A stretch of 17,707 nucleotides of DNA, from positions 1-17,707 of the forward strand of contig CAMBHH010000056.1 of assembly GCA_945866505.1 (NCBI GenBank), in the 5' to 3' direction. The stretch's first letter is position 1, and every line of letters begins with the position of its first letter. Shown piece by piece: positions 1 through 14,743 of this stretch. The notes beneath the pieces were generated by a model. The model had not been told where the DNA came from. It made no database searches and saw only the letters and a list, made by a program, of their open reading frames with translations. This DNA comes from Flavobacterium psychrophilum. GTDB taxonomy: Bacteria; Bacteroidota; Bacteroidia; Flavobacteriales; Flavobacteriaceae. The translations under genes were made by a program, and so were the position numbers.

Positions 1-393
1 CGTTACCGAATTATCACCAGCAGAAAAGTTTTGATTGAACAAAACGAACAAACATTTACAGTAAAAATACCAATTTTAACGAAACAAATTTCAGTTATGG
101 AAACATCAATAAATTATAATGAAAATACCGCTTACTTTAGAGCCAAAAAACGAGTAGAAGAACTCAAAGGATTTTACGGAAACTTAATTTCATATTGTTG
201 TGTAATTCCGGTTTTAATTTTTATAAATTTGACTTATATGCCACAATTTCAATGGTTTTGGTTTTCGGCAGGAGGTTGGGGATTTGGTTTAACAATGCAC
301 GCTTTCAAAGTTTTTGGTTATAGTTCCAACTGGGAAGAGCGTAAAATTCAAGAGATTTTAAGAAAAGAGGAAAATAAACAAACTTGGAAATAA
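1..393 (+). CDS. LytS-type histidine kinase C-terminal tail joined in frame to a 2TM domain (5' partial)
   Basis: The frame is open from base 1. The first ~25 residues (RYRIITSRKV..., then TVKIPIL) look like the end of the HATPase domain of a LytS/YehU-type sensor kinase, which often ends in VKIPL-like sequence. Without any stop the frame continues into a 2TM domain (PF13239-like): KKRVEELKGFYGN, two hydrophobic segments, then the tail NWEERKIQEIL. An ATG at 100 could start a separate 2TM protein, because its sequence lines up with the start of the next gene, but it has no clear ribosome-binding site. Either this is a kinase with a C-terminal 2TM domain, or two genes share a frame. The downstream LytTR regulator at 1213 fits a kinase/regulator pair. 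The 2TM domain is clear; the kinase assignment rests on a short tail and on context. Confidence 0.7.
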   Translation, partial: RYRIITSRKVLIEQNEQTFTVKIPILTKQISVMETSINYNENTAYFRAKKRVEELKGFYGNLISYCCVIPVLIFINLTYMPQFQWFWFSAGGWGFGLTMHAFKVFGYSSNWEERKIQEILRKEENKQTWK

Positions 394-404
394 TAGTTAA
401 AAAT

Positions 405-707
405 ATGGAAAATATATATCAAGAAGAACGCTATTATAAAGCAAAAAAAAGAGTAGAAGAAATCAAAGGGTTTTACGGCAATTTAGTCTCATATATTCTT
501 GTGAATATTGTACTTTTGATCATTAATTTAGTGACTTCGCCAGATTATTTATGGTTTTTTTGGCCATTACTAGGTTGGGGAATTGGAGTTGTATTTCACG
601 GTATGAGGGTGTTTAATTATATGCCTTTTCTTGGAAAAGATTGGGAAGAGCAAAAAATTAAAGAGTATATGGATAAGGAAAATGAGAATAAAGAAACTTG
701 GAAATAA
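405..707 (+). CDS. 2TM domain protein, second tandem copy
   Basis: A 100-residue membrane protein of the 2TM family: KKRVEEIKGFYGN motif, two hydrophobic helices (roughly residues 27-47 and 55-75) and a charged tail DWEEQKIKEYM ending in ETWK. I chose the ATG at 405, 11 bases after the previous stop, because MENIYQEERYY aligns with METSINYNEN of the upstream copy. A TTG at 384 would overlap the preceding gene and has no homologous extension. The domain is common in Flavobacteriia near LytS/LytTR genes, often as the N-terminal part of the kinase. Its function is unknown; a membrane-anchored partner of the kinase is an inference. Confidence 0.8.
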   Translation: MENIYQEERYYKAKKRVEEIKGFYGNLVSYILVNIVLLIINLVTSPDYLWFFWPLLGWGIGVVFHGMRVFNYMPFLGKDWEEQKIKEYMDKENENKETWK

Positions 708-723
708 TTCAAAAATTAAAGAA

Positions 724-1074
724 ATGCAACAATCAATAGAAATGTTTGAAGAATACCAGTCTGAAAATTATAGTTCAGACGAACGATACAATATCGCTTA
801 CAAAAGGGTAAAAAGAATCAAAGGATTTTATGTTCACGCACTGGTTTATGTTTTGGTTAACATATTCATTGTTACCAAAAATTATTATGGTAATACTCAA
901 AGTAATCCAAATTTTTGGAGCTGGATAAACTTTAACACAGCATTATTTTGGGGAATTGGTTTAGCGGCACACGGTTTATCAGTATTTGGGAAAAACATTT
1001 TTTTTGGAAAAAACTGGGAAGAAAGAAAAATTCAAGAGTTAATGGAAAAAGAAAAAAGCGAGAAATGGGAGTGA
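724..1074 (+). CDS. 2TM domain protein, third tandem copy
   Basis: A 116-residue protein with the same plan as the two upstream copies: KRVKRIKGFYVHA, two hydrophobic stretches separated by a polar loop (NPNFWSWIN), a glycine-rich second helix (FWGIGLAAHG) and the tail NWEERKIQELMEKE. The start at 724 lies 16 bases after the previous stop; an ATG at 742 is also possible. It is the most diverged copy. It precedes the LytTR regulator, separated by a 138-base repeat-rich gap, so co-transcription with the regulator is likely but not certain. No catalytic residues are apparent, and a structural or sensory role in the membrane is inferred. Confidence 0.8.
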   Translation: MQQSIEMFEEYQSENYSSDERYNIAYKRVKRIKGFYVHALVYVLVNIFIVTKNYYGNTQSNPNFWSWINFNTALFWGIGLAAHGLSVFGKNIFFGKNWEERKIQELMEKEKSEKWE

Positions 1075-1093
1075 GCAAGTATTGCAGATTGCA

Positions 1094-1206
1094 GATTTCA
1101 GAATTCAGAAATCAAGTGTGAGATTTCGAATTATGAACTTCTAAACGGTAAAACCTTTAAACTCTAAAACCTTCAAACTTCCATCTTCAAACTTCTAACC
1201 ACTAAC
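1094..1206. repeat. Repeat-rich intergenic spacer
   Basis: Between the third 2TM gene and the LytTR gene lies simple-sequence DNA. At 1094-1113 GATTTC and GAAATC flank the palindrome GAATTC, giving a near-palindrome. From about 1136 there is a run of degenerate units related to CTTCAAACTTC; exact copies are at 1171-1181 and 1185-1195. The unit is strand-biased, with C but almost no G on the + strand. I see no open reading frame. It may be a dispersed intergenic repeat. Confidence 0.6.
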
Positions 1207-1212
1207 CTAAAA

Positions 1213-1971
1213 ATGACCACAATAATAATCGAAGACGAAAAACCAGCTGCAAGATTACTGCAACGCAAACTCGAAAAATTTAATGTCGAAGTAGGAGTGA
1301 TGCTTCATTCTGTTGAAGAAGCTGTCGAATGGTTTTCTAAAAATGAGCATCCGGATTTAATCTTTTTAGATATTCAATTATCGGATGGTTTGTCATTTGA
1401 AATTTTTGAAAAAATAGACATAAAAAGCGCTGTGATTTTCACAACAGCTTATGACGAATATGCGCTGAAAGCATTCAAATTAAACTCCATTGATTATCTC
1501 TTGAAACCCATCGACGAAGACGATTTGGAAGTAGCGATTTCTAAATTTAAAGACCGTTTGCCTAAACCTGAAAAGAATTTACAGTTGGATTTTGAACAAA
1601 TTAGAAAAATGTTCCAAAATCCTCTCGAGAAGAATTACAAAACTAGGTTCACGGTAAAAATTGGTCACCATCTCAAAGTAATTTCTACTGATGAAATTGA
1701 ATGTTTTTTTAGCGAAAATAAAGGAACATACATTCACACTTTCGATAATCGAAATTATTTAATTGAAAGTACTCTCGAAGTTTTGGAACAAGAATTAGAT
1801 CCATCAGCATTTTATCGAATTAGCCGAAAATTCGTTATTCCATTAAAATCCATCAAGGAAATTGTGTTGTATTCGAACTCAAGATTGAAGGTAATTTTGC
1901 CTTCTTACAAGGAGGATGACGTGATTGTTAGTAGAGAAAAGGTTCAAGAATTTAAAAATTGGATAGGATAA
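1213..1971 (+). CDS. LytTR-family response regulator
   Basis: A 252-residue DNA-binding response regulator. The N-terminal receiver (about residues 1-115) has the acidic pair E7/D8, the phospho-acceptor D53 in FLDIQLSDG, T77/T78 and the conserved K98 in LLKP. A linker precedes a LytTR DNA-binding domain from about residue 144, with the family features FFSENKGTYIHT and FYRISRKFVIPLKSI. The length and order match the LytR/AlgR (LytT) family. It lies directly downstream of the kinase tail and the 2TM genes, so it is probably phosphorylated by that kinase. Its targets cannot be read from the window. Confidence 0.95.
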   Translation: MTTIIIEDEKPAARLLQRKLEKFNVEVGVMLHSVEEAVEWFSKNEHPDLIFLDIQLSDGLSFEIFEKIDIKSAVIFTTAYDEYALKAFKLNSIDYLLKPIDEDDLEVAISKFKDRLPKPEKNLQLDFEQIRKMFQNPLEKNYKTRFTVKIGHHLKVISTDEIECFFSENKGTYIHTFDNRNYLIESTLEVLEQELDPSAFYRISRKFVIPLKSIKEIVLYSNSRLKVILPSYKEDDVIVSREKVQEFKNWIG

Positions 1972-2063
1972 TTCTATATTAAATTATTATAATAAATAAA
2001 TATACTTAAAAATACTGGTGTTTAATTATTTACGAATTCAGTATAGATTATTTCTATGATGAT

Positions 2064-2837
2064 TTAAGTTCTAAAAAAGGACTTTCTAATCCCAATTAAT
2101 ACAAGAATAAATAAAGTGTACAAGATGAAAAATGGAATGATATATTCTATTAAATCCATCGGCAGCATTACGGCAATAATCAGCAATTGAAAACCTAATC
2201 CATAAATAGAAACAAACGTCATAAACCAATTAGGAAACGTTTTTGCCTTGTACGCTTCACTGTCTAAAGTATGAATTATTTTGTCGAAAACACCATAGAC
2301 AATTGTGTAAATCCTAAACCAGATATTGACCCATTTTTGAGTTTCTCCAGGTAAAGCTACTGGTGAATTGTCTTCGAAAATTTTGCTCGTTTTGTCTCCT
2401 CCAATTGAATTATTTCTCAAAATCACATAGTAGTAATTGTATAAAGTTCCTTGTAATTGGATGCAAAAAAAGGCTAATAAAGCCATCCAAAATGAGGTTT
2501 CGGACATGTAGCATATCATCATAAAAAAGAAAAAATTGAGTGTAATATCAAAGACACTGTCGAGATATCTTCCAACATAAGAAGGTGTGTTTTTTATTCG
2601 AGCTAGTTCGCCATCAATAGCATCAATAATCGATTTCAGAATGATGAAAAAGCAGGCTAAAAAGTAGTGGTTTCGCAAAATGCAGTAAATGCCAATCAAG
2701 CCACAAAGTCCAAAAAGCAGTGTGACGTGAATAGGTGTAAATCGTGTGTTTTTTAATTGATTGGCAAATAGCTTTGCAATTGGTCTTCCATAATCCGACA
2801 AATCTAAGAATTTATCCTCGGCAGCAAGTTTAGACAT
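2064..2837 (-). CDS. CDP-alcohol phosphatidyltransferase family protein
   Basis: A 257-residue integral membrane enzyme carrying the complete CDP-alcohol phosphotransferase signature: D72, D75-G76, A79-R80, G89, D93 and D97 (DAIDGELAR...GRYLDSVFD). These residues bind the two metal ions and the CDP-linked substrate. At least five hydrophobic segments follow or surround the motif. The family makes phospholipids (phosphatidylglycerol-phosphate, phosphatidylserine, phosphatidylinositol-like lipids). The substrate here cannot be told from sequence, so I give no gene symbol. It lies downstream of ctaA on the same strand with an 85-base gap and converges with the LytTR gene. Confidence 0.9.
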   Translation of the reverse strand: MSKLAAEDKFLDLSDYGRPIAKLFANQLKNTRFTPIHVTLLFGLCGLIGIYCILRNHYFLACFFIILKSIIDAIDGELARIKNTPSYVGRYLDSVFDITLNFFFFMMICYMSETSFWMALLAFFCIQLQGTLYNYYYVILRNNSIGGDKTSKIFEDNSPVALPGETQKWVNIWFRIYTIVYGVFDKIIHTLDSEAYKAKTFPNWFMTFVSIYGLGFQLLIIAVMLPMDLIEYIIPFFILYTLFILVLIGIRKSFFRT

Positions 2838-2922
2838 TTTTATACGTTGAAAAGAGAATGTGACAATATAGTCGGTTACTAATTTGAATAGCCCACGGAT
2901 TAATCAGTAGGTTTTGTTTGTT

Positions 2923-3945
2923 TTATAAAAGAATTTTCTTGTTGTTTTTGGATTCTAAAATCATATAAAATTGTACTCCAAATAACAGTGTAGCTAAAAC
3001 AATATGAATAGTTTGTGTTCCAAATGGAAAATCAAAATAATACATAGCAATTCCGGTAAGAATTTCAATTCCGATCAAAACTAGTACCCAGTTTGTTTTT
3101 GAAAAGCCTAAATTTAATTTTCGATTTCGTCCGAATAAAAACAAGTTGACCAATAAGACGATTATTGAAAAACTACGATGAACATAAAACGATAAACTCG
3201 GATTTTGAAGCCATAAAATTTCAGGTGCGCCAGTTTTCGAAATGGTATCAACTTGCTCTCGAACACTTGTTCCTAAAACAACCTGAATTATTGTTAAAGC
3301 CAATGAAATTAGTAAAACCCAATTGAATTTATTGTCAAGAATTAATGCTTTTCGGTCTTTTTTAACCTCATGAATAGTGATTAATTGAAAAGCAACAATT
3401 AACAAAGCGGCGAGCATGTGTGTAGTGATTTTAACTGGGTTCAACACTGAATCGACGACTGTTTTGCCTAACCAAGCTTGAAATCCCATTAAAATACAAA
3501 TTAGAAAAGTAAGTAGAATGAGTTTTTTATTGTCTTTCCGAAACCAAAAAGAAAGTATAAAAGTCGCAAAGCAAATAATTCCTGCTAATGCTCCTAACAA
3601 TCTATTGATATATTCTACCCAAGTGTGTAAAGGATTGAAAACGGCATAATCGTGTTTGGTGTATTTTTCCCAATTGGAAGATTCAAAGGTAGCTGTCGAG
3701 ATAAAACTGGCTTTTGCTACCAATAATGATTCGTCTTTTATGATTACTTGACCTTTGTCGTATTCTTTTCCAGCGGTAAAAAGTAATTCTTTTTCCTGTG
3801 TTGGTGGAATGTAGTATCCAAAGCATTTTGGCCAATCAGGGCAACCCATTCCAGAACCAGTTAATCGAACAAATGCACCTGCAAGTATGACAAGATAAAC
3901 TAGAATTAATGCTGTTTTAGCCGATTTTAAAAAGTATTTTTTCAA
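2923..3945 (-). CDS. ctaA: Heme A synthase, COX15/CtaA family
   Basis: A 340-residue polytopic membrane protein that converts heme O to heme A for the aa3-type terminal oxidase. It has about eight transmembrane segments in two related halves. Conserved features are visible: the loop cysteine pair C35/C41 in GCPDWPKC, the first-half catalytic set H107/E111/N114/R115 (HTWVEYINR), and heme-ligand candidates H176, H256 and H314. Length is normal for bacterial members. The start codon lies 7 bases downstream of the stop of the broken toxin gene, so the toxin-antitoxin locus sits in its 5' region. The gene implies an aerobic respiratory chain. Confidence 0.95.
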   Translation of the reverse strand: MKKYFLKSAKTALILVYLVILAGAFVRLTGSGMGCPDWPKCFGYYIPPTQEKELLFTAGKEYDKGQVIIKDESLLVAKASFISTATFESSNWEKYTKHDYAVFNPLHTWVEYINRLLGALAGIICFATFILSFWFRKDNKKLILLTFLICILMGFQAWLGKTVVDSVLNPVKITTHMLAALLIVAFQLITIHEVKKDRKALILDNKFNWVLLISLALTIIQVVLGTSVREQVDTISKTGAPEILWLQNPSLSFYVHRSFSIIVLLVNLFLFGRNRKLNLGFSKTNWVLVLIGIEILTGIAMYYFDFPFGTQTIHIVLATLLFGVQFYMILESKNNKKILL

Positions 3946-3952
3946 TGGAATT

Positions 3953-4231
3953 TTATTTTATTGGAAAGTCTAGTGGATTTTGGCGTGTGTCCCAGATGTG
4001 TAGGACAACAATTTCATATGGGGTTATTTTGTAAATAATTTCAAAATGGCTTATAATTATAAATTTTGAATCTTCTCTAAAAGTAGGTTTGCTGAATTCT
4101 GGAAGTTGTAGGCCGATTTTTAAATTGGTCTTGAAAAGTACATTTAATCTTCGACTCTATTCTTTTGATTTATTTCTATTATTCCAGTATTCAAAAATAT
4201 TTTTATAGAATTTCGGGTCTCTACGAACCAA
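3953..4231 (-). pseudogene. ParE/RelE-type toxin with an in-frame TAG stop
   Basis: Reading the minus strand from TTG at 4231 gives VRRDPKFYKNIFEYWNNRNK, then a TAG at 4157-4159, then about 67 further codons in the same frame (SRRLNVLF ... EIIYKITPYEIVVLHIWDTR) ending at TAA 3953-3955. The N-terminal YWNNRNKSK stretch and the C-terminal beta-strand hairpin ending in IWDTRQNP are characteristic of plasmid-stabilization ParE-like toxins. Related toxins commonly carry Tyr where the TAG stands (KEYSRRLN), so a Tyr-to-stop change is likely. No ATG is available; the only starts after the upstream in-frame stop are ATT or TTG. It follows the antitoxin immediately, as in intact modules. It is probably inactive. 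Confidence 0.85.
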
Positions 4232-4232
4232 A

Positions 4233-4499
4233 TTAATCTTCTAACCATTCTAGAATTTCTTTTTGTGCTTCTTCATCAGAAATACATTCGGCATTTTCAT
4301 ATTGTTGGATAGCAAGATTTATTTTACGTTGTTCCTCTTCCGAAAAAATTCTAATTTTTTCATAAGTTGTGGTTTGCTCATTTACTAATGAATTAGATTC
4401 ATAGTCGTTTATAATTTCTTGAATTTTATTTAACAAAGCGCTATCGTCAATTGCGATAATTTTTTCAATTATTTCTAATTTTAATTCGGCTAAAATCAT
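4233..4499 (-). CDS. Probable antitoxin of a ParE-like toxin-antitoxin pair
   Basis: An 88-residue acidic protein starting at ATG 4499; an upstream TTG at 4505 would add two residues and is less likely. The N-terminal half is helical (AELKLEIIEKIIAIDDSALLNKIQEII), like many Bacteroidota antitoxins paired with ParE-type toxins. The C-terminal half (FSEEEQRKINLAIQQYENAE...EEAQKEILEWLED) resembles the toxin-wrapping tail of such antitoxins. Its stop is 1 base before the TTG that begins the toxin reading frame. Because the toxin carries a nonsense codon, this gene is probably an orphan antitoxin. The name rests on gene order and shape, not on a signature residue. Confidence 0.75.
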   Translation of the reverse strand: MILAELKLEIIEKIIAIDDSALLNKIQEIINDYESNSLVNEQTTTYEKIRIFSEEEQRKINLAIQQYENAECISDEEAQKEILEWLED

Positions 4500-4555
4500 A
4501 ATCAAAATTTCTATAAAGTTAAGAATTTTTTAAATATAAGAACAGTAAACAATAC

Positions 4556-5986
4556 TTAAACTTTTATCAAACCTAATTTGGCTCCACGCATCAAAACGAA
4601 ATCATAAGCCGCTTGATATTCATTAGGAATTTCGCCTTCCAAAATAGCTTCTTTTACTGCTTCTTTCAAAACTCCAATTTCTCGTGATGGTTGCAAATTA
4701 AAAATTGCCATAATCTCTTCTCCAGAAATCGGCGGTTGAAAATTGCGCACCTGATCACGCTCTTCGACTTCTACTATTTTCTTGCGAACAATTTCGAAAT
4801 TCTGATGGTATTTTTTGAATTTATTGGGGTTTTTGGTCGTGATGTCGGCTTCGCACAAGGTCATAAGGCTTTCAACATCTTCGCCGGCATCAAAAATCAA
4901 ACGGCGCACTGCCGAATCAGTGACGATATCTTCGGATAAAACAATGGGACGTGAACTCATCATTACCATTTTTTGTACAAATTTCATTTTGTGGTTTAGT
5001 GGCATTCGCAATCTTTCGAAGATTTTCTTTGCCATTTTTCCGCCCAAAAATTCGTGACCGTGGAAAGTCCAACCCTGTTTTTTGTTGAAACGTTTGGTAG
5101 GCGCTTTTCCAATGTCGTGTAACAATGCCGACCAACGCAACCAAACATCATCCGTATTCGGGCAAATATTATCCAATACTTCCAGTGTGTGGTAAAAATT
5201 ATTTTTATGGGTTTGTCCCTCGATTTCTTCCACTTGGTTCAAAGCAGTTAATTCTGGTAATATTATATCCAATAATCCAGTTTTGTACAACAATAAAAAT
5301 CCAACCGAAGGCTTGCCGGTAGAAAGGATTTTATTCAATTCATCGACAATTCTTTCACCCGAAATTATCTTGATTCTATCTGCATTTTTTGTAATAGATT
5401 GCAAAGAGTTTTCTTCAATTTCAAAACCCAATTGATTCGCAAATCGTATTCCTCTCAACATTCGCAAAGGATCATCGGAAAAAGTAATGTCAGGATCAAG
5501 CGGAGTTTTGATGGTTTTATTTTTCATATCGTCCAATCCATTGAAAGGATCGGAAAGTTCTCCAAAATTGGCGGTGTTTAAAGATAAAGCCAAAGCGTTG
5601 ATTGTAAAATCACGACGATTTTGGTCGTCTTCCAAGGTTCCGTTTTCTACAACAGGATTTCGGCTGTCAAGATTGTAGGATTCTTTTCGAGCGCCTACAA
5701 ATTCGATTTCGGTATCTTCAAAACGCAACATTGCTGTTCCATAGGTTTTAAAAACTTGTACTTTTGGTTTGTTGGGCAATAATTCAGAAACTTTCAAAGC
5801 CAATTCAATTCCGCTGCCAACAGCGACAATATCGATGTCTTTTTTGAAATCTCGTTCAAGAATTAAATCCCGCACGAAACCACCAATAACATAACTATCT
5901 ATGTTGAGTTCTTGCGAAGCGTGCGAGATGACTTCGAATATTTTATTATTTAGGGCTTTAGTATAGTTGGTTTTTATTGTAGCCAC
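4556..5986 (-). CDS. cca: CCA tRNA nucleotidyltransferase / poly(A) polymerase family with HD domain
   Basis: A 476-residue enzyme that adds CCA to tRNA 3' ends. The nucleotidyltransferase head has GGFVRD (residues 35-40) and the metal-binding DID (50-52), followed by the RRDFTINALAL block near residue 127 and the RMLRGIRFA RNA-binding segment. A C-terminal HD domain carries the LLHDIGK motif. I start it at GTG 5986, giving MATIKTNYT. The frame remains open to a TTG at 6007, but the seven extra codons lie in repeat DNA and the first ATG is far inside. The GTG lies inside a copy of the repeat that bounds the GxxExxY cassette, so that insertion may have replaced the native start region. Confidence 0.93.
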   Translation of the reverse strand: MATIKTNYTKALNNKIFEVISHASQELNIDSYVIGGFVRDLILERDFKKDIDIVAVGSGIELALKVSELLPNKPKVQVFKTYGTAMLRFEDTEIEFVGARKESYNLDSRNPVVENGTLEDDQNRRDFTINALALSLNTANFGELSDPFNGLDDMKNKTIKTPLDPDITFSDDPLRMLRGIRFANQLGFEIEENSLQSITKNADRIKIISGERIVDELNKILSTGKPSVGFLLLYKTGLLDIILPELTALNQVEEIEGQTHKNNFYHTLEVLDNICPNTDDVWLRWSALLHDIGKAPTKRFNKKQGWTFHGHEFLGGKMAKKIFERLRMPLNHKMKFVQKMVMMSSRPIVLSEDIVTDSAVRRLIFDAGEDVESLMTLCEADITTKNPNKFKKYHQNFEIVRKKIVEVEERDQVRNFQPPISGEEIMAIFNLQPSREIGVLKEAVKEAILEGEIPNEYQAAYDFVLMRGAKLGLIKV

Positions 5987-6435
5987 TGATTCACAGATTT
6001 TTTTCAAAGATTATTTTATAATTCTTTTGTATTCAAGAGAAGTCTTGTTGAAATTTACTAAAATAGCGAGTCTATGCCCAGAAACGTGCAAGTAGTTTAA
6101 GCATTGTGAAATATGCTTTTCGTGCAATGCGTCTGTTGATTTTATTTCAATTATGATTTTGTCTGATATAACAAAATCAGCATAAAATTTATGATTTAAA
6201 ATAATATCTTTATAATGAACTAAATATTCTTTCTCTCTTGCAAAAGAAAAGTCAATCCTTTTTAACTCATATTCAAAGGCATCTTTATAAACAATTTCAG
6301 AGAAACCTTTGCCCAAATTTTTATGGACTTCTATTAAAGCACCAATAATTTTATAAGTATCATCTTCGTATAAATAGTCTGACATAATAATCTGTGAGAT
6401 TTATTTTTTTAAATAAAATCAGTGAATTTGTGGTT
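5982..6435. mobile_element. GxxExxY gene cassette bounded by inverted repeats
   Basis: A gene-bearing segment with related inverted repeats at its edges. The left copy is GCCACTGATTCACAGATT at 5982-5999; the right copy, AATCAGTGAATTTGTGGT at 6417-6434, reads ACCACAAATTCACTGATT when reversed. An inner AATCTGTGAGATT at 6389-6401 overlaps the upstream side of the gene. The core is built from CACAGATT and CACTGATT words in either order. It lies between cca and tsaC. No transposase is present, so if it moves it needs help in trans. Calling it mobile is an inference from the repeats and from the patchy distribution of GxxExxY genes. Confidence 0.55.
6011..6385 (-). CDS. GxxExxY protein, PD-(D/E)XK nuclease-like fold
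   Basis: A 124-residue protein of the GxxExxY family (PF13366-like). The name-giving motif is G27-x-x-E30-x-x-Y33 in GKGFSEIVY, preceded by the typical IIGALIEVHKNLG helix. D70 in YADFVI and E80-x-K82 in IIEIKS form a PD-(D/E)XK nuclease-type active site, and HISQCLNYLHVSG and LAILVNFN complete the usual core. The length is normal and all key residues are kept, so it may be active. Its biological role is not established. It lies alone in a repeat-bounded segment between two housekeeping genes, with its stop 24 bases before the cca start. Confidence 0.9.
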   Translation of the reverse strand: MSDYLYEDDTYKIIGALIEVHKNLGKGFSEIVYKDAFEYELKRIDFSFAREKEYLVHYKDIILNHKFYADFVISDKIIIEIKSTDALHEKHISQCLNYLHVSGHRLAILVNFNKTSLEYKRIIK

Positions 6436-6454
6436 TTTTTATAACTAACCACAA
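6428..6454. repeat. 8-bp hairpin at the junction of the two repeat units
   Basis: TTGTGGTT at 6428-6435 is mirrored by AACCACAA at 6447-6454 across an 11-base T-rich loop. It joins the outer end of the GxxExxY cassette to the start of the gene-less unit. It could be a weak terminator, or simply the abutted ends of two repeat units. Confidence 0.5.
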
Positions 6455-6474
6455 AACAATCAAAAGCATATATT

Positions 6475-6600
6475 GCCACAGATTCACTGATTTTTAATTG
6501 GATTTCTTTTTAGAAATAGGATTGATTTATAAACTTTAAAAGAAATCTGTGTTTTTTTTTCGTTGTCAATAATCTAATTTTAATCTGTGAATCTGTGACA
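6475..6600. repeat. Gene-less inverted-repeat unit (MITE-like)
   Basis: GCCACAGATTCACTGATT at 6475-6492 is mirrored by AATCTGTGAATCTGTGACA at 6582-6600. The similarity extends inward (TTTTTAATTGGATT against AATCTAATTTTAA). An extra AAATCTGTG word lies at 6543-6551. The roughly 90-base centre has no open frame and can fold partly (TTTCTTTTTAGAAA). It uses the same repeat words as the GxxExxY cassette next to it, so it looks like an empty version of the same element. It ends 7 bases after the tsaC stop and may fold into a terminator-like structure. Confidence 0.6.
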
Positions 6601-6607
6601 AAAAAAA

Positions 6608-7174
6608 CTATTTTCTGATCACTTTTACCTGCGAATCGCTCGTTAATTTTATGATTGTCGAAGGTTTTCCGGCAATTTTATCGCGGTGCAAATTTACAAC
6701 ATAGTCCACACCTTTTATAATTTCTGGACTAATATCTTTGAAGGCAATAGGATTGGGTTGTCCTGAAATATTTGCCGAAGTGGACACTAATGGTTTTCGC
6801 ATTTTTTCCATTAATTTAAAACAGAAAGACTCTTTTACGATTCGGATTCCTAATGTATTGTCAGCAGCTATTAAATTGGGCGCCACATTTCTTGGTTTAT
6901 CTAATATTAATGTGGTTGGTTTTTCGGATAAATCAATAATTTGCCAAGCCACTTCGGGAATATCTTTGAAAACATTATACATCATTTTCTCGCCATTCAT
7001 CAAAACAATCATACTTTGAGTTTCATCCCGTTGTTTGAGTTTGTAGATTTTGGAGACCGCTTCAGCATTTGTGGCATCACAGCCAATTCCCCAAACGGTG
7101 TCTGTTGGGTAAAGGATAATGCCACCTTGTTGGATTATGTCAAATGCTTTGTGGATTTCGTGGTTGATGTCCAT
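6608..7174 (-). CDS. tsaC: L-threonylcarbamoyladenylate synthase, TsaC/YrdC type
   Basis: A 188-residue single-domain enzyme that makes threonylcarbamoyl-AMP from threonine, bicarbonate and ATP, the first step of t6A37 tRNA modification. It has the YPTDTVWGIGCDA motif (residues 22-34), KQR at 47-49, STSAN at 131-135 and KPSTII near the C-terminus. The length matches the short TsaC/YrdC form and not the longer Sua5 form, which has an extra C-terminal domain. The ATG at 7174 starts just before the conserved N-terminal helix. A TACCTTTG box 19 bases upstream suggests its own promoter. Confidence 0.94.
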   Translation of the reverse strand: MDINHEIHKAFDIIQQGGIILYPTDTVWGIGCDATNAEAVSKIYKLKQRDETQSMIVLMNGEKMMYNVFKDIPEVAWQIIDLSEKPTTLILDKPRNVAPNLIAADNTLGIRIVKESFCFKLMEKMRKPLVSTSANISGQPNPIAFKDISPEIIKGVDYVVNLHRDKIAGKPSTIIKLTSDSQVKVIRK

Positions 7175-7192
7175 TTTGTTTATTATATTTTA

Positions 7193-7200
7193 CAAAGGTA
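7193..7200 (-). promoter_or_regulatory. Bacteroidota-type -7 box upstream of tsaC
   Basis: The minus strand reads TACCTTTG, an exact match to TAnnTTTG, 18-20 bases before the tsaC ATG. No clear TTG -33 element is present. Confidence 0.45.
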
Positions 7201-7373
7201 TTTATTTGAAGTTATTGAAATTAGATATTAAATAAAATTATGGACTTATAATCAATTTTATGAATAAAGTTAAGTTGTAAAATCAACAAAAAAACACATT
7301 ATTTTTAATAGCGATTATAGAATAAACCCGATATGTTGAATAAACAAATCAGATTTTATAACAGTGATTTTTT

Positions 7374-8960
7374 TTATTGCAAATGGTATTGCAAAGTAAG
7401 TTGAAACTGAATATTAACTTTAAGATTATGATACTGCCATTGATAATTATCCATCAATGAAGTGTTCAATTTAGCTTGAATTCCAAAATTATTATACTTT
7501 CGGTAAGCAAATGTGTTGATATTAAAGTCTGTCCATTTATGATTGTATTCAGTATAGGCGTCATAGTAATAATCTAGATTATGTGACAATCGTTCCATTT
7601 GAACTCCCCATACTTTGCCTTTATTCCAAACACTAAATTCTAAGGTTTGCGAATTTCCACCAGGACCAATTCCAGAACCCATTACTTGGCTTTCATTAGT
7701 GTAACCATGACGAACTTGACGATGTACGTACCAAGCACCAGCAGGTCTTACGATGCGATCGGCACTTTGTTGCATTCCTGCATGTTCAAAATTGAATTTC
7801 AAATACTTCTCTTTGTTTGGATTAAGTAAAAAAATTTTACTAAAACCTAATAGAAAAGCTCTGGAATGAGAAGGGCTTTCAAATAGATCAACAATGTCGT
7901 TAGAATGATCGTTCCAGCCGTTTTCGAAATATAACTCTGCTTTAGATTCTTTTAGTACCCATCTTAAAAATAGAGAAGCCACTTGGTCTCTCGCTTTTTC
8001 ATCTTCTTCGGTTAAATTTTTCTTTTGAAATGGAGTAATAACTGGGAAATAATCCGAAAAACTATCTCCTAAGTCTTTGTGATAAACCTGAAATACGCGA
8101 TTTAAACCGATAAACAAACCAGGAACCCATTTGGGTTGGTAATTTATGGTTAATCCGCTCATATAGCGCCAATCCTGCTCTTTAGGTAATTTGTAATTTA
8201 TTCCGTCAATGATATATTGCTCTTCTGCAACATCTAGACCAGAACTTTTTAATTTTCCAGAAATCAATTGTCCTTCAAAACTTCCTATTAAAGTTTTTAT
8301 TGGTTTTCGGGTATTAAGCGTGAAATGTAAAAACCCAGGAGCATTATTACTCATAATAAGTGAATTCCTTTGCCCAGGTCCCCACCAAAGATTTTCGGTA
8401 GAGACCCCTACAGATATGCTTTTATAATTGAGACTAATTTTGCTTTGCCCCCAAAATAATTTACTGTAGGGTTTGGCACCTAAAAGTTCGGGTAAATCTG
8501 AGTAATTGAGGTAGTAAATATGATTGGTTCGTGCTACATCTGTTTCAGTTAAAGGGAATGTTTCAAAATCGGGATTTGCTGCATAAACATATTCGGGATT
8601 TATTTTAACATTTAAAATTCCATATTGAGCAAATAATCCAGCGCTTAGAAGAGTCTGATAGCCTTTGGCAGGAATCATTGCGCCATCATTCCATCCCGAA
8701 GGAGCAAAGGTATTGTATTGTTGTGTAACGCGGATAGGAAGAGCTTCTAAGCTAAACTTTTTGTTTGAATCAAGCTTACCTGTTAGTAGACTTTGTGATA
8801 AGGGGCGCAATGAAAAGGATACCAATGAATCTACTCTTCCTAATAATTGTTCATTTCGTAATCGTGTCTCCGTAAAATCAATATATCCAACTGGGATGTT
8901 TTGAGCAAAAAAGGTATTGCTAATTAATAAGAAAATAATAATTCTAAATGATATATTCAT
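7374..8960 (-). CDS. Capsule assembly Wzi family outer-membrane protein
   Basis: A 528-residue protein. It starts with a signal peptide (MNISFRIIIFLLISNTFFAQ, cleavage probable after FFA). The rest alternates short beta-like strands rich in aromatic and polar residues, with recognisable Wzi-family segments (ISVGVSTENLWWGPGQRNSLIMSN, then GFLHFTLNT, and GMQQSADRIVRPAGAWYVHRQVRHGYTN). In E. coli, Wzi is an outer-membrane barrel that binds exported capsular polysaccharide to the surface. Bacteroidota members are longer and often lie beside polysaccharide clusters, as here, where the glycosyltransferase region starts upstream. It is transcribed alone, with a TAACTTTG box upstream. Confidence 0.88.
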   Translation of the reverse strand: MNISFRIIIFLLISNTFFAQNIPVGYIDFTETRLRNEQLLGRVDSLVSFSLRPLSQSLLTGKLDSNKKFSLEALPIRVTQQYNTFAPSGWNDGAMIPAKGYQTLLSAGLFAQYGILNVKINPEYVYAANPDFETFPLTETDVARTNHIYYLNYSDLPELLGAKPYSKLFWGQSKISLNYKSISVGVSTENLWWGPGQRNSLIMSNNAPGFLHFTLNTRKPIKTLIGSFEGQLISGKLKSSGLDVAEEQYIIDGINYKLPKEQDWRYMSGLTINYQPKWVPGLFIGLNRVFQVYHKDLGDSFSDYFPVITPFQKKNLTEEDEKARDQVASLFLRWVLKESKAELYFENGWNDHSNDIVDLFESPSHSRAFLLGFSKIFLLNPNKEKYLKFNFEHAGMQQSADRIVRPAGAWYVHRQVRHGYTNESQVMGSGIGPGGNSQTLEFSVWNKGKVWGVQMERLSHNLDYYYDAYTEYNHKWTDFNINTFAYRKYNNFGIQAKLNTSLMDNYQWQYHNLKVNIQFQLTLQYHLQ

Positions 8961-8985
8961 AAGTTGTTTATTTGTATAAAAACAG

Positions 8986-8993
8986 CAAAGTTA
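8986..8993 (-). promoter_or_regulatory. Bacteroidota-type -7 box upstream of the wzi-like gene
   Basis: TAACTTTG on the minus strand matches TAnnTTTG and lies about 26 bases before the ATG. No good TTG element is seen upstream of it. Confidence 0.4.
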
Positions 8994-9016
8994 GACTTAT
9001 ATTTTAAATCCTACTT

Positions 9017-9241
9017 TTATAATGTAATGAAAAATATAAAAGAATGTTGTGGCACTGTAAATTCTGGGTTTAAATCATCACAGCCATAAAATGGGGTTAC
9101 ATAGTACTGAGGTGCCAATAGCTTTATTACATTTAAATCCTTTTGAGGCTCTTCTTTCTTCTTATAAAACAGGTTTCTACAACTAATTTCTAATAATTCA
9201 CATTGTTTAATACTGCTTAATTTATTGGTTGAATCTATCAT
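9017..9241 (-). pseudogene. IS3-family transposase orfB, N-terminal fragment
   Basis: This 74-residue frame is not an independent gene. MIDSTNKLSSIKQCELLEISC and YYVTPFYG match the start of IS3-group OrfB, whose helix-turn-helix region typically reads like LSxxRQCELLGISRSSxYY and later TPFYGxR. The sequence leaves the family after FYGC, and the DDE catalytic core is missing. It starts in the run of eight A residues shared with orfA, where IS3 elements normally shift frame by -1. The inner edge, where transposase sequence ends, lies between about 9017 and 9090 and cannot be fixed. Confidence 0.8.
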
Positions 9242-9542
9242 TTTTTTTCTCTTTCTTTGATGGGATTAATTCAACTTTTTTTAGAAAACCAACCTGCTAA
9301 CTTAGCTCGCCAATACGAGCATAAAGCTTCTCGGTAGGAATTTCATTTTTAGGAGCGACCGTTTTCTCGATAGAGAAAACTGAAGAAATATCCCTTATTG
9401 CCTCGGCTTTCTAACGCGAAATTTGGTTGGGCAAAAGCTTATATTTTTTGGCTAATACCTCGATGGTATCTTTTTCTTTAAGTGCCTCTAGCACCACTTT
9501 GGATTTAAAATTCTTCCTGAAGGTTCTTCTTGTTTTTGACAT
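9222..9542 (-). pseudogene. IS3-family transposase orfA, broken by two stops
   Basis: Reading from ATG 9542 gives MSKTRRTFRKNFKSKVVLEA and then LKEKDTIEVLAKKYKLLPNQISR, the helix-turn-helix of IS3-group OrfA. An in-frame TAG at codon 44 (9411-9413) replaces the Trp usual in NQISxWK. A second TAG lies at codon 82 (9297-9299), just before a VGFLKK segment matching the end of the OrfA coiled coil. The frame finally stops at 9222, overlapping orfB as usual in the family. The element cannot make a functional transposase. Confidence 0.85.
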
Positions 9543-9583
9543 AATTTGGCTAATTTAAGGCTGTTATTCCTATCTTAAATCAT

Positions 9584-9612
9584 GCTTTTATCTGTCTGAA
9601 TTTTGGGGAGTA
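9584..9612. mobile_element. Probable outer terminal repeat of the IS3 remnant
   Basis: CTGTCTGAATTTTGGGGAG begins at about 9585, upstream of orfA at the distance expected for an IS3-type terminal inverted repeat. It is followed by the palindrome AGTATACT. No matching inverted copy is seen at the other end (around 9041-9060 only a poor CTGTAAATTCTGGG in the wrong orientation), consistent with truncation of the orfB side. Confidence 0.45.
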
Positions 9613-9730
9613 GTATACTATTTTATGAAGGAGGATAAAACGAATAGTCAATTGCCAATTCAAAAAATGATATTGTGAAGAGACTCGTATTCGAATATTA
9701 AGTTATTTAGAACCTTCTTTTTACACAAAC

Positions 9731-10693
9731 TCATTCACTTTTCAAATCAAATACCACATTGACCCAAATACTTAAAGTATATTTATTATAGACACTTTCA
9801 GGAATTGGTTCGTAAGGGGTGTTGAAAAATTCTGGTTTAAAAGTTATATGTTTTTCATCAATTATTAAGATATTATTAGGTTTATAAAAATCGTAATTCT
9901 TAATAGATTGATTTGTTGTAATGATTTTTCTTTGCATCGGTCACGTTTCAAAAATTCTAAAACTTAATCCATTATGTTTTTTTCTAATTAAATCAAGAAA
10001 AAATACAGATTCATTTTAGAGTTCTAGAACCTCTATAGTATTTTTATTTTTGTTTATATGTTCTATACCTGGTTGAATTGATTGAGGTTAAATACTACTA
10101 ACAACAATACACTTTGAATTAATATCAATACCTAAATAAGAGAGTTTTTCTACAATTAAGTTTAAAACGGTTAATTGTTCATCAAGAGACATTATAATAA
10201 ATACTGTGTTTTAAATGATTTTTTTATTTCAATTTTTTTTTGAGAAATATAAAATTGGTTATAGCTATAAAACCAAATTTCTCAACATCTTCCATTTCAA
10301 AAGAATAAATTCTTTCGAAAATCCCCTTTGTTAAGTTTTTAATGTTGAAACGGATACAACTGTCGTATAAATAACATTTGTTTTCTGAAGTATGTTTTTT
10401 AATTTTTAAATGAGTATCTCTGTATATTAAATCTGGACGAATTACAAGTATTATGTCTTGTTTTCCTAATGGTAATAATTGATTAAAAATAAATTTTTTA
10501 ATTCGATTTGCTTAATGTTTTTTTTGAAAAATAGCTTAAGAAAAAAATTTCTGATTTTTTGAAATTTACTAGAATATGAAAAATGAAATTTACTTATATC
10601 AATATGGGTTGCATTAATATTTCTTTTTTGGAGTTCTAAAAGGGTGTGTTTGTAATATCCAAAATAATCATAATTTATAATACAAAATTTCAT
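9731..10693 (-). pseudogene. CgeB-like glycosyltransferase, multiply disrupted
   Basis: Two short frames (68 and 75 codons) are the ends of one decayed gene. The start at 10693 reads MKFCIINYDYFGYYKHTLLEL. A frameshift near 10480 leads to GKQDIILVIRPDLI and LYDSCIRFNIKNLTKGIFER, where sugar-nucleotide glycosyltransferases of this group have similar blocks. Further shifts occur near 10220-10235 and 10200. The last part reads MSLDEQLTVLNLIVEKL, then FFLDLIRKKHNGLSFRIFE, then KIITTNQSIKNYDFY and SIWVNVVFDLKSE. In-frame stops fall at 10088-10090, 10016-10018 and 9941-9943. Joined up it would be about 320 residues, with the LDLIR...GLSFRxFE block of the C-terminal Glyco_trans_1_2-like domain. It is certainly non-functional; the family name is less certain than the decay. 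Confidence 0.82.
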
Positions 10694-10697
10694 AAAA

Positions 10698-10751
10698 TTA
10701 CTTTTTGATTCTTATAAATCCCATTCTAGCACCAAAAAGAAGGTGTAGCAT
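10698..10751 (-). pseudogene. C-terminal scrap of a lost gene
   Basis: The minus strand reads MLHLLFGARMGFIRIKK and stops 4 bases before the ATG of the decayed glycosyltransferase. The tight spacing and the basic, hydrophobic end suggest the tail of a gene once upstream in the operon. An in-frame TAG precedes it, so nothing longer survives. The family is not recognisable. Confidence 0.35.
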
Positions 10752-10815
10752 TGTTCTTTTCTAAAATTGCATTGTTAGTAATATTTTTTTTAGAAAACTG
10801 CAAAAGAACAGTAGC

Positions 10816-11685
10816 CTAAAAAATAAATAAAGGGTCGATTTCGCCCATTTTATTATTCTTAAAATCCTGAAAAGCCTTTTGCTTATATTTTAAAACTTTA
10901 ACAATTTCGTTAGAATATCTTATGTTTTTAGAAATATGATACCTCTGATTTTTTTCAAATTTACGGATAATTTCGGGAATTTTTTTTTCGTATTTATTTT
11001 TAATATAAAGCATATTCCTAAACATATAATAAATTCTCAGAGAGGAATGAAGAGAAACATATTTTTTAAATAAATATAAAGTAAAAATTGAACCTCTTTT
11101 AGTTCTGGTTCCGAGAGAATGACTAAAGGAAATATTGCAGAATTTTATGTTTTTAAATCCTTTACATATTGCTGAAAAACAATAATCTATGTCTACACCA
11201 TCAATAAAAAGGTTGTTGTCAAATCCACCTATTACATTAAATAGTTTGAGGTTTAAAACTGATGCCGAAGTAATTAGATGATCTACTTCTGTTGTTATTG
11301 GCGTTTTGGAATAAATTTCTTTTCGATTATATTCTAAACCATAAACCGCTACTTTACTGTGATAGACAAAGTTTACAATACATTGAAAATAGTGGTTAAT
11401 TGTTATAGTATCAAAGCAAGAATCTTGATCCATAGTAAGCAAATAATCAAAATTTTCTTCGATTGCCTTTTTACAAGCATCGTTTAACCTAATCGAAATT
11501 CCTTTATTTTCACCATCCCAATAGTATTCAGTCTTTTTTAAATTTTTAAAAACTAATTGGTTCGATTTTTTTTGGGAATTATCAAAAACATACAGCTTTT
11601 TAACGAAAGGTAAATACGTTTCTATATTGCTTATTATTTCAGTAGTATTAGGATGATATAAAATGACACATGCTGCAATATTCAT
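10816..11685 (-). CDS. GT2 glycosyltransferase, rhamnosyltransferase-like
   Basis: A 289-residue cytoplasmic GT-A enzyme of family GT2 (COG1216 type). The N-terminal nucleotide-sugar fold has VILYHPN, FDNS (residues 34-37), GENKGIS and the metal-binding MDQD at 85-88. The acceptor part has GGFDNNLFIDGVDIDYC and the SLRIYYMFRNMLY segment typical of RfbF/WbbL-like rhamnosyltransferases. It starts 12 bases after the stop of the preceding GT2 gene, so the two are one operon. The actual donor sugar is not determined by sequence. Base composition is very AT-rich, like the decayed genes next to it. Confidence 0.9.
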   Translation of the reverse strand: MNIAACVILYHPNTTEIISNIETYLPFVKKLYVFDNSQKKSNQLVFKNLKKTEYYWDGENKGISIRLNDACKKAIEENFDYLLTMDQDSCFDTITINHYFQCIVNFVYHSKVAVYGLEYNRKEIYSKTPITTEVDHLITSASVLNLKLFNVIGGFDNNLFIDGVDIDYCFSAICKGFKNIKFCNISFSHSLGTRTKRGSIFTLYLFKKYVSLHSSLRIYYMFRNMLYIKNKYEKKIPEIIRKFEKNQRYHISKNIRYSNEIVKVLKYKQKAFQDFKNNKMGEIDPLFIF

Positions 11686-11697
11686 TTTTTTTATTTT

Positions 11698-12651
11698 TTA
11701 CTTTCTCTTGCCTCTAACAGCGTCAATGTACTTAAAAAAAGCAAATCTAATCGGGAATTTTAATTTTATTGTACTGTTGGTTTTGTCCCAATCATATTTG
11801 CTTTTTACAACCACATCCGACAGGCTTAAACTTGGCGAAATTAATTTATTAAATTTTAAACTATTATTAAATTTCAAATATTTTTTTTTAGATAATAATC
11901 TGTATTCTTTGAAGGTTTTTGGTTTTTCTAAATTAAGAATAATTCTTTTTAGATGCAGTTTTTGTTTTATTTTGTTTATATTTTTCATCCCCACTTGTTG
12001 ATTACTATGCAGCCTGTAAGAAATAAGATTTTCATCTGAGTAATACAGTGTATTTCTTATTGCGAGTAGATTTGCAATCCACTCATCGTGCAGCATATCA
12101 GTATGAAATGGAAATATGAAATCTTTAACACTTTTAGTAATGCATAAAGTTGCACCGGTTACTACATTACCATTTTTAGAAACAACATCAAAAAGGTCAA
12201 TAGGTTTTGTTAATTCTTTTTCTAAAAAAAAGATTGAATCCCAAATGGTTAAGTCCTTAATTTGGTTGTTATCTTTGTCGATTAAATCTGCATTTGAAAA
12301 GACACCTTCAGCATCTGGATTTTTATTAAAAACTTCTAAAACTTTTTGAATCTTATTGTTTTTCCAAATATCATCTTGATCAGACAAAAAGATGTAATCA
12401 CCCGAACAAAGTGAAATTGCTGTTTCAAAATTTTTGGTACTCCCAAGATTTATTTCATTGACATAAATTTTAAAAATATTTGGGTATAAAATTTTGTATT
12501 CTGTAAGAATTTTTAAAGTGTCATCTTTTGATTTATCATCGCAAATAATGATTTCATCTGGGATAGCACCATGTTGATTTAAAATACTATCGATTTGTTT
12601 TCTAAGGTATTTGAATCCATTAAAGGTACATAGAGCTACAGAAATCTTCAT
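11698..12651 (-). CDS. GT2 glycosyltransferase with SDQDDIW motif
   Basis: A 317-residue GT2 enzyme. The fold starts at once (MKISVALCTFNG), with CDD at 37-39, the SDQDDIW metal and nucleotide-sugar motif at 90-96 and GNVVTGATLCITK before LHDEWIANL, the usual layout of O-antigen and capsule GT2 enzymes of the WfaV/LgtA-like group. The C-terminal region is basic and has no obvious membrane helix. It is upstream of and nearly contiguous with the 10816-11685 gene. Sugar specificity is unknown. Confidence 0.9.
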   Translation of the reverse strand: MKISVALCTFNGFKYLRKQIDSILNQHGAIPDEIIICDDKSKDDTLKILTEYKILYPNIFKIYVNEINLGSTKNFETAISLCSGDYIFLSDQDDIWKNNKIQKVLEVFNKNPDAEGVFSNADLIDKDNNQIKDLTIWDSIFFLEKELTKPIDLFDVVSKNGNVVTGATLCITKSVKDFIFPFHTDMLHDEWIANLLAIRNTLYYSDENLISYRLHSNQQVGMKNINKIKQKLHLKRIILNLEKPKTFKEYRLLSKKKYLKFNNSLKFNKLISPSLSLSDVVVKSKYDWDKTNSTIKLKFPIRFAFFKYIDAVRGKRK

Positions 12652-12714
12652 GTTTTGCTGATGTTTTGTGTCTAGTTTTATGATAAAAAATAGTAAGTAA
12701 AAAATTTAATCGGA

Positions 12715-12888
12715 TTATGTAAGAATTGATTTTAATAGTAGCAAATATAATAATTCAGAATCTTTGATGGCTATTTCAATTCTGCTTAATATCTCAACAA
12801 TATCAACGCCGTTCTTATCAAATTTATAGATCTTGGCAATATGCAGCTTCAAGGTTCGTAGCATAGCAACCAATTTTACCAAAAAAGT
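12715..12888 (-). pseudogene. Unidentified gene remnant in a 303-base gap
   Basis: The gap 12652-12954 between two GT2 genes contains a 57-codon minus-strand frame between stops. From ATG 12864 it reads MLRTLKLHIAKIYKFDKNGV followed by DIVEILSRIEIAIKDSELLYLLLLKSILT. This part is richer in G and C than its AT-rich surroundings and looks protein-like, with helical hydrophobic spacing. I do not recognise the family. It may be a small gene or the surviving end of a larger one. The rest of the gap is AT-rich and shows nothing definite. Confidence 0.3.
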
Positions 12889-12954
12889 CTACCTTGCAGA
12901 CAAGAAATTTTTTATTTTTTTATTTTATTGTATTTAATTTGCGAACTTCTTTGT

Positions 12955-13887
12955 TTATAATAGATTAACGATTTTTTGTTGGTTTTTTAATGATTTTGAC
13001 AAATGTGCTCCTGCCAATATAAGAAAGAATACTGACCAATTTTTAGGTTTAAAAAGACTACTGAAAAAATATTTTATGACAAGAAAACACTGTACTATTT
13101 TATGTCCAAAAAAACCATAATGTTTTCTAATAATATAAAGTAAGGAAATTTTTAATTCTTTTTTGATAACTAACGACCGCTGCTCTGTACTTGCACCGTG
13201 GTAATGAATAAATTCGGCTTCTGGAATTAAATAGGCAAATTTAGACTTTTTCTCTAATCTCTTACAAAGATCGGTTTCTTCATAATATAAAAAAATAGCA
13301 GTGTCAAATCCTCCGATTTCATAAAAATCGATAGCTCTAACAAACATAAAACTACCTGGAATAAAATTTACTTTTAAAGGTTGGGTATATTCTTTTTTCC
13401 TTTTAGGATAGTTTGTCGCATCTATAAATTCCAAAAAATTTCTGCCCAAAGTTTCTCTTATTGGTGAGGCAAAATGATCAAGTGAAATCATAAACTCTCC
13501 ATTTTCTTTATAAGCCTGAGCACCAGCAATTCCAATATTTGGGTTGTTCTCTAATGCGTTTTTTAGAATCGAAAAACAATCATTTTTCAATAAAGTATCA
13601 TTGTTGAGAAAAGCCAAATACTGGGCTTTGGCAAATTGAATTCCAAACATATTCCCTCCTCCAAAACCAGTATTTATATTACTTCGATGAAGTTCTAAAT
13701 TAGGGAAATTATTCTCTTCACAAAACGATTTCAACTTTAAATAATCCTCTTTTTCAGAACAATTATCGGTTATGATAATTTGATAATTAAGGTTTTTTGA
13801 GGTTTTTTCAATAATGGAACGAATGCAATTGATGCTGTGTTCGCTGGAGTTATAGTTGATTAGAATTACGGCTATGTCAAACATCAT
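12955..13887 (-). CDS. GT2 glycosyltransferase, rhamnosyltransferase-like (COG1216)
   Basis: A 310-residue GT2 enzyme: VILINYNS, DN at 41-42, NTGFGGGNMFGI, the DxD-equivalent NND at 95-97 and the acceptor block GGFDTAIFLYYEETDLCKRL, followed by FIHYHGAST. The C-terminus (about residues 250-300) has hydrophobic stretches that may anchor it to the membrane. It overlaps the previous gene by 4 bases (ATGA), a strong sign of translational coupling. A second ATG directly follows the first. The linkage it makes cannot be inferred. Confidence 0.92.
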   Translation of the reverse strand: MMFDIAVILINYNSSEHSINCIRSIIEKTSKNLNYQIIITDNCSEKEDYLKLKSFCEENNFPNLELHRSNINTGFGGGNMFGIQFAKAQYLAFLNNDTLLKNDCFSILKNALENNPNIGIAGAQAYKENGEFMISLDHFASPIRETLGRNFLEFIDATNYPKRKKEYTQPLKVNFIPGSFMFVRAIDFYEIGGFDTAIFLYYEETDLCKRLEKKSKFAYLIPEAEFIHYHGASTEQRSLVIKKELKISLLYIIRKHYGFFGHKIVQCFLVIKYFFSSLFKPKNWSVFFLILAGAHLSKSLKNQQKIVNLL

Positions 13888-14678: not shown

Positions 14679-14712
14679 AGGGAATATAATTTATGTAAAA
14701 ATACATTAAAAA

Positions 14713-14743
14713 TTTGAAGTCTAAAATGCAATACATACATTTG
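14713..14743 (+). promoter_or_regulatory. Bacteroidota sigma-A-type promoter for the Kdo-kinase-like gene
   Basis: TTTG at 14713-14716 and TACATTTG at 14736-14743 are separated by 19 bases and match the TTTG / TAnnTTTG consensus and spacing. The ATG follows 21 bases after the -7 box. This is the best promoter match in the window. Confidence 0.65.

Follow-up and report, generated by a model that had tools for sequence, protein, structure and literature searches.

Why should a small nuclease-like gene lie inside a pair of inverted repeats between two housekeeping genes, and do the repeats belong to it? The question is raised by a 17,707-bp stretch of Flavobacterium psychrophilum DNA (contig CAMBHH010000056.1 of assembly GCA_945866505.1, positions 1 to 17,707; hereafter the window), in which the inverted repeats CACAGATT/CACTGATT surround a gene of the GxxExxY family between cca and tsaC. 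From sequence comparisons we propose that GxxExxY is probably the dedicated nuclease of a system resembling repetitive extragenic palindromes (REPs). A REP-associated system had been suspected in the preliminary description of this locus, and it is well supported by the pairing of gene and repeats and by the dispersal of the repeats. Gene and palindromes together would probably form a second, unrelated kind of nuclease-plus-palindrome system, beside that of the REP-associated tyrosine transposases (RAYTs) and their REP doublets forming hairpins (REPINs). The cassette and its surroundings consist of the following features.

6011..6385, minus strand: GxxExxY gene, PD-(D/E)XK nuclease-like, 124 amino acids, with D70/E80/K82 (open reading frame, profile matches, alignment)
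5983..5999, plus strand: enclosing repeat 3' of the gene, CCACTGATTCACAGATT (pattern match)
6417..6433, minus strand: enclosing repeat 5' of the gene, inverted, CCACAAATTCACTGATT (pattern match)
6388..6397, no strand assigned: lone additional unit directly upstream of the GxxExxY gene, reading TAATCTGTGA on the plus strand (identical 10 bases at 6581-6590)
6476..6492, plus strand: gene-free inverted doublet, first arm, CCACAGATTCACTGATT (pattern match)
6582..6598, minus strand: gene-free inverted doublet, second arm, TCACAGATTCACAGATT (pattern match)
4556..6007, minus strand: cca, flanking housekeeping gene (open reading frame and profiles)
6608..7174, minus strand: tsaC/Sua5, flanking housekeeping gene (open reading frame and profiles)

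The enclosure of the gene by inverted repeats between two housekeeping genes, as first described, was therefore confirmed, and the limits given at that time (5982-6435) were almost exactly the outer ends of the enclosing repeats. The 17-bp pattern CCACWRATTCACWGATT, with at most 2 mismatches allowed, had 4 sites in the 17.7-kb window, compared with a mean of 0.06 in shuffled sequences, and all four copies fell within about 620 bp. The solo doublet is in plus-then-minus orientation with a spacing of 106 bp. No Rfam family was matched at 5900-6700.

The protein is a clear member of its family, scoring 131 bits against the TIGR04256 GxxExxY profile (cut-off 35) and 120 bits against PF13366 (cut-off 22). 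D70, E80 and K82, recognised in the preliminary description as a full PD-(D/E)XK set, were invariant across 55 aligned sequences. The predicted model had a pLDDT (predicted local distance difference test) of 94.8, its structural matches were PD-(D/E)XK nucleases, and the predicted fold is like those of Cas4 and lambda exonuclease; the D-ExK residues are present together with a QxxxY motif. Searched by sequence, solved structures gave no match at E up to 1. The HUH/Y1 transposase profile PF01797 was not matched by the window gene, PF13366 being the sole family reported. We found that GxxExxY is under purifying selection in most close pairs: dN/dS (the ratio of nonsynonymous to synonymous rates) was at most 0.12 in 11 of 13 (0.09 between the window and L001), and the remaining two pairs (0.29 and 0.64) both had a dS below 0.1. 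One sequence search returned 2,651 relatives and another at least 7,999. That the family has no settled function, as stated earlier, agrees with our search of the open literature, which left most subscription papers and all bioRxiv preprints outside its scope and found no function for GxxExxY, none of the repeat strings tried and no relevant paper on REPINs in Flavobacterium. In the available portions of open papers, GxxExxY, PF13366, TIGR04256 or PDDEXK_3 are named in passing, without a function.

The pairing of gene and repeat was general. Relatives were represented by 80 cca loci, almost all of them from records labelled as Flavobacterium or as a related metagenome-assembled genome, and GxxExxY genes were taken from 38 genomes of these relatives and from 80 further regions (the upper part of a longer list). 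The gene was present in 1-14 copies in 36 of the 38 genomes. Each gene was scored by the best inverted match, without gaps, that its two 160-bp flanks made with each other, with a threshold score of 12, and the 143 located genes, less 9 repeated sequences, gave 134 distinct Flavobacterium genes. The threshold was reached by 108 of the 134, compared with 9 of 766 other open reading frames (ORFs) of the same loci, 2 of 134 after the flanks were shuffled and 9 of 134 when ends were swapped between cassettes. Relatives shared both the gene and the repeats; a gene shared without the repeats would, by the preliminary description, have counted against its suggestion. For the phylum, 296 Bacteroidota genomes were drawn, 149 with GxxExxY over the cut-off and 147 without; 19 of 37 gene ORFs from 30 loci of this draw and 6 plasmid loci reached the flank threshold. 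Tandem units no more than 400 bp away accompanied 29 of 31 phylum ORFs and 95 of the 134 Flavobacterium genes, compared with 36 of 597 other ORFs. By eye, repeat units also lay beside GxxExxY on large replicons of Spirochaetota (L221), Gemmatimonadota (L225) and Pseudomonadota (L226) and on a Fusobacteriota plasmid (L224), which suggests that the pairing is not confined to Bacteroidota. The units in L225 (Gemmatirosa) and L226 (Sphingomonas) were similar, GC-rich (acgcggat, cgcgaag) and on one side of the gene, and those in L224 (Fusobacteria bacterium ZRK30) were direct, not inverted, with gatttaatccgtgtacctat on both sides.

Examined by eye, each terminal repeat is a short tandem array of 2-4 units, the unit being about 7-10 nt long, and the units come in flavours according to gene lineage: CACAGATT, CGCAAATT, CACGAATT, CACGGATT, CGCAAAG, CACAGAG, CACATAGA, CATATAAG and CATTAAG. 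The occurrence of these repeats away from the gene was closely associated with the gene itself. Two or more CACAGAG-type sites were found in 52 of the 149 Bacteroidota genomes with GxxExxY and in 1 of the 147 without. Repeats of this tested flavour therefore do not occur everywhere regardless of the gene; had they done so, the preliminary description would have counted it against its own suggestion. Site totals were 555 and 12, respectively (29 and 7 for a reversed control pattern), and among genomes of at least 3 Mb two or more sites occurred in 52 of 136 with the gene and 1 of 71 without. In the 38 Flavobacterium genomes the number of CRCRRATT-type sites rose with the number of genes (rho 0.67), and both genomes without the gene had none. 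The dispersed flavour also followed the resident gene. Three flavours (CACGAATT, CGCARATT and CACAGATT, in this order) were counted genome-wide in 32 genomes with GxxExxY at cca, giving 635, 50 and 14 sites in CACGAATT-type genomes, 20, 188 and 86 in CGC-type genomes and 6, 3 and 24 in CACAGATT-type genomes, where the CGC class also holds the mixed-repeat genomes (L007, L012, L013, L031, L051, L055), and mixed repeats such as CGCAGATTCACAGATT are picked up by the CACAGATT count, which allowed 1 mismatch. Two of the 32 genomes had fewer than 2 sites and were excluded; in 24 of the remaining 30 the commonest flavour was that of the cca-locus gene. Residues 83 and 92 of the protein were S and I with CAC-type repeats and T and Y with CGC-type repeats in a comparison of 27 of 33 cca-locus genes, the six with mixed repeats being left out.

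The dispersed copies were mostly inverted doublets. The spacing analysis covered 226 sites among the matches listed per genome, with lone-site contigs mostly left out. Of neighbouring sites no more than 150 bp apart, 64 of 78 were plus-then-minus; among plus-then-minus spacings up to 900 bp, 50 of 70 measured 21-42 bp, corresponding to hairpins of about 38-59 bp, and 4 of 70 measured 413-458 bp, the size of a gene-bearing cassette. In the loci inspected, solo doublets were palindromic and intergenic. At two loci of G289 (L258, L260) the palindrome extends some 16-20 bp into the flanks, a pattern expected if an older hairpin carried the doublet at its tip or if an inverted copy of the flank had been made.

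These properties recall REPIN/RAYT systems. RAYT genes are described as single-copy, vertically inherited and not seen on plasmids, with REPINs commoner where the gene is present (PMC8049555); RAYT subclasses with their own REPs are described in Bacteroidetes (PMC6006769) and RAYT and REP are reported to co-evolve (PMC8266576). The two systems share a small nuclease gene that lies between copies of a palindromic repeat of its own, doublets in inverted arrangement that are dispersed without the gene, repeats that are commoner with the gene, and a gene that is not duplicated (tested in Flavobacterium), is vertically inherited and hardly occurs on plasmids (PMC8049555, PMC6006769, PMC8266576). 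Dispersed inverted doublets without a gene were indeed what we found for GxxExxY. The differences are that GxxExxY is a PD-(D/E)XK enzyme whereas RAYT is of the HUH/Y1 kind; that the GxxExxY repeats are built of 7-10 nt units in tandem and mostly lack the GT[AG]G foot seen at Flavobacterium RAYT flanks; and that a single genome may have several GxxExxY flavours and as many as 14 genes. The GxxExxY system is not a RAYT system, because the defining enzyme and the GTAG-type foot were looked for and not found. It is likely to work like one. The GxxExxY protein would bind the tandem units of its own repeat and cut or trim DNA at the palindrome, and host repair would then place copies of the doublet at new sites in trans. 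The gene, in contrast, would move rarely and be inherited mainly vertically, like RAYT genes. Strands would be joined by host repair or by a partner enzyme, as PD-(D/E)XK enzymes are not known to join them themselves. We also lean, if only slightly, towards a broader proposal in which GxxExxY proteins are the enzymes of a whole class of palindromic repeats, each lineage of the Cas4-like fold reading its own tandem unit and spreading it in trans. This class would include CACAGATT, CGCAAATT, CACGAATT, CGCAAAG, CACAGAG, CATTAAG, CATATAAG and other units, for which we found no described enzyme.

If this is true, populations of REP-like repeats have arisen on at least two occasions, on the basis of unrelated nucleases, and a REP system arose independently of HUH enzymes, with a protein-DNA code that is open to decoding; more than 100 natural protein-repeat pairs are available for reading DNA specificity. 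The link to repeats would give the very large GxxExxY family a concrete, testable hypothesis, and the short tandem-unit palindrome families of environmental bacteria a candidate enzyme.

Does the cassette move as a whole? The repeats had been taken to suggest a mobile unit, and this is supported as far as the ends are concerned, which fit empty sites in relatives. The case examined was the cassette L119, whose two repeats agree at 41 of 41 bases and whose surroundings were matched in 85 of 121 Flavobacterium genomes. Among the matches listed, 35 genomes matched the query by its two flanks only: the upstream piece ended at query positions 227-247 in 34 of 35 (the repeat ends at 236), and the downstream piece started at 797-811 in 27 and later in 8 (the repeat ends at 805). 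Forty loci at this site, chosen among the matches listed, were inspected. A GxxExxY gene was present in 19, one of which (L286) had gene and solo doublet side by side, and 14 had gene-free palindromes of CGCAAAG/CACAAAG type, a flavour unlike that of L119. The conserved flanks were joined with 0 bp between them in L282 and L283 and 3 bp in L284, L285 and L295 had 24 and 48 bp without a clear repeat, L299 had a partial repeat, and L301 was uncertain. Taken together, the flank matches and the inspected loci indicate that the cassette ends are real and that one site was used by two flavours. The empty sites L282 and L283 carry no repeat, the repeat being a putative recognition site only.

Recent movement of the whole cassette, in contrast, was not found. 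In 222 within-genome pairs of GxxExxY proteins (fetched genes, not every copy) the median identity was 35% and the maximum 60%, none reaching 70%, and whole cassettes have therefore not been recently duplicated in this sample; at non-homologous sites, the highest identity among matches limited to the gene was 82%. GxxExxY of L069 is 90% identical to that of the window and its cca 82%, but a recent horizontal replacement at cca is not claimed, as synonymous sites are saturated (dS 1.9). On plasmids GxxExxY was found in 8 of 72,556 records, the same 8 organisms with two queries, all typed non-mobilizable and six larger than 400 kb; the loci of 6 of the 8 matches were inspected. No GxxExxY was found by tblastn in 50,697 phage records, and a scan of viral_contigs gave 19 pattern matches and no confirmed relative; with one or two queries behind these searches, distant members may have escaped them. 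What disperses is the repeat doublet without the gene.

Several results weigh against the proposed nuclease-repeat system. The flank threshold was missed by 26 of the 134 GxxExxY genes, including that of the window, whose two enclosing repeats have diverged from each other (score 11, threshold 12), and the genes of L245, L246 and L251 have no visible repeats. The Flavobacterium genomes G025, G034 and G036 have the gene yet zero CRCRRATT-type sites, and G197 has doublets but no gene. The commonest flavour did not match that of the resident gene in six genomes (G360, G019, G037, G006, G010, G024), and the permutation behind the flavour agreement (p 1e-4) ignores kinship, much of the CACGAATT group looking like one clade. 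No target-site duplication was recognised in the 40 inspected loci of the L119 site at the divergence of the relatives there. Protein and repeat distances were correlated (Mantel r 0.57, p 0.0005; 109 genes, namely the 108 with a detected repeat and the window, 25 being left out), with an equal result when repeats were permuted only among paralogues of one genome, but this correlation is expected from common descent alone because gene and repeats are linked. The tests of genome-wide repeat presence and of resident flavour are independent of that linkage. Finally, two or more CACAGAG sites were found in 0 of 20 GxxExxY genomes without a RAYT-type gene, compared with 52 of 129 with both (p 1e-4; one flavour, with lineages not independent).

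As to the exceptions, the two doublets of G197 lie close together on contig C17 (L252) in the only gene-free genome with at least two sites, and they are perhaps remnants after gene loss. The genes of L245, L246 (G121) and L251 (G309), without visible repeats, lie near or overlap other reading frames and possibly form a subfamily without repeats.

The association with RAYT just described favours an alternative in which a RAYT, alone or with GxxExxY, moves the repeats, GxxExxY being an accessory nuclease or one needed only beside RAYT. Site number also correlated with the number of Y1_Tnp matches in Flavobacterium (rho 0.53), where 29 of 38 genomes had a match over the cut-off. We nevertheless consider this alternative unlikely. 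RAYT without GxxExxY was accompanied by two or more CACAGAG sites in only 1 of 81 genomes, and G005, G016, G017 and G037 had 26, 6, 7 and 5 sites with no Y1_Tnp match. RAYT flanks carried another motif: two or more GGTAG motifs occurred in 9 of 15 and GxxExxY-type tandems in 2 of 15, whereas GxxExxY flanks showed the reverse (GGTAG in 17 of 134, tandems in 95 of 134); among other ORF flanks, two or more such motifs (GTAG form only) occurred in 58 of 597. The 15 are the Y1_Tnp (RAYT-type) Flavobacterium genes L227-L241, and their GGTAG motifs indicate that a second, separate REP system seems to be present in these genomes. Moreover, GxxExxY genes of RAYT-free genomes are often still flanked by repeats. 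Of ten GxxExxY genes taken from nine such genomes, 5 reached the flank threshold, that of L245 by a 12-bp non-tandem match; by eye, tandem units flank L242, L243, L244, L248, L249 and L250 and one side of L247, and are not seen at L245, L246 and L251. The two enzymes may therefore act as partners.

A minimal insertion sequence, in which the whole cassette would move by its terminal repeats with GxxExxY as the transposase and the solo doublets as deletion derivatives like miniature inverted-repeat transposable elements (MITEs), also accounts for part of the data. Insertion sequences with MITEs share terminal inverted repeats (108 of 134) and gene-free derivatives of the same repeat with the cassette, which is present or absent between relatives and ends at the repeats. 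It is improbable all the same: the cassette has no family transposase, near-identical copies within a genome are lacking (222 pairs, at most 60% protein identity), most close pairs are under purifying selection, the best gene-confined match at non-homologous sites is 82%, the gene is hardly found on plasmids or phages, and no target duplication was recognised; the PD-(D/E)XK fold cuts strands and is not known to join them. That GxxExxY was inserted by chance into host terminators or other palindromes, gene and repeats having no functional link, is very improbable: doublets are indeed palindromic and lie between genes in the loci inspected, with the palindrome continuing into the flanks at L258 and L260, but the tested repeat is nearly absent without the gene (1 of 147), the dispersed flavour follows the resident gene, the two ends of one cassette match, whereas ends from different cassettes rarely do (108 compared with 9 of 134), and the window stretch has no Rfam match.

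Two further systems were compared. Homing endonuclease genes resemble GxxExxY in being small nuclease genes whose chromosomal site is fixed and which some relatives have and others lack. Homing, the other mechanism raised in the preliminary description, is not supported, since the cassette carries its putative recognition repeat at both ends and does not destroy it, and the repeat is also dispersed elsewhere. Cas4, lambda exonuclease and RecE share with GxxExxY the predicted fold, the D-ExK and QxxxY residues and weak Cas4 profile matches. Cas4 binds an iron-sulphur cluster via cysteines; GxxExxY, in contrast, has only 124 residues, its alignment contains no invariant or 90%-conserved cysteine, and the window gene lies between cca and tsaC, not beside cas genes. 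A reading as a defence system was set aside, as PADLOC profiles gave weak Cas4 matches alone.

The repeats also shape host genes, as seen at the start of cca.

5984..6007, minus strand: first codons of cca, with in-frame start candidates TTG (6005-6007) beside and GTG (5984-5986) inside the repeat (sequence; alike in relatives)

Of 80 cca loci, 2 of which were too short to score, 39 lacked an ATG at the conserved position and had the repeat's outer end within 30 nt. Among 45 listed loci (of 47), the GTG of the repeat was the only in-frame start codon of cca within 19 codons in 26, including loci where GxxExxY is absent, e.g. L014 and L018-L021. For many Flavobacterium, the repeat thus contains the only start codon, or the nearest one, of the tRNA CCA-adding enzyme. 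Doublets or single repeats also form tandem arrays in G005 (C4, 130499-131354), G010 (C55, 75987-76369) and G043 (C10, 46203-46819), with periods of about 204, 122 and 192 bp, respectively, which resemble arrays that CRISPR finders might call.
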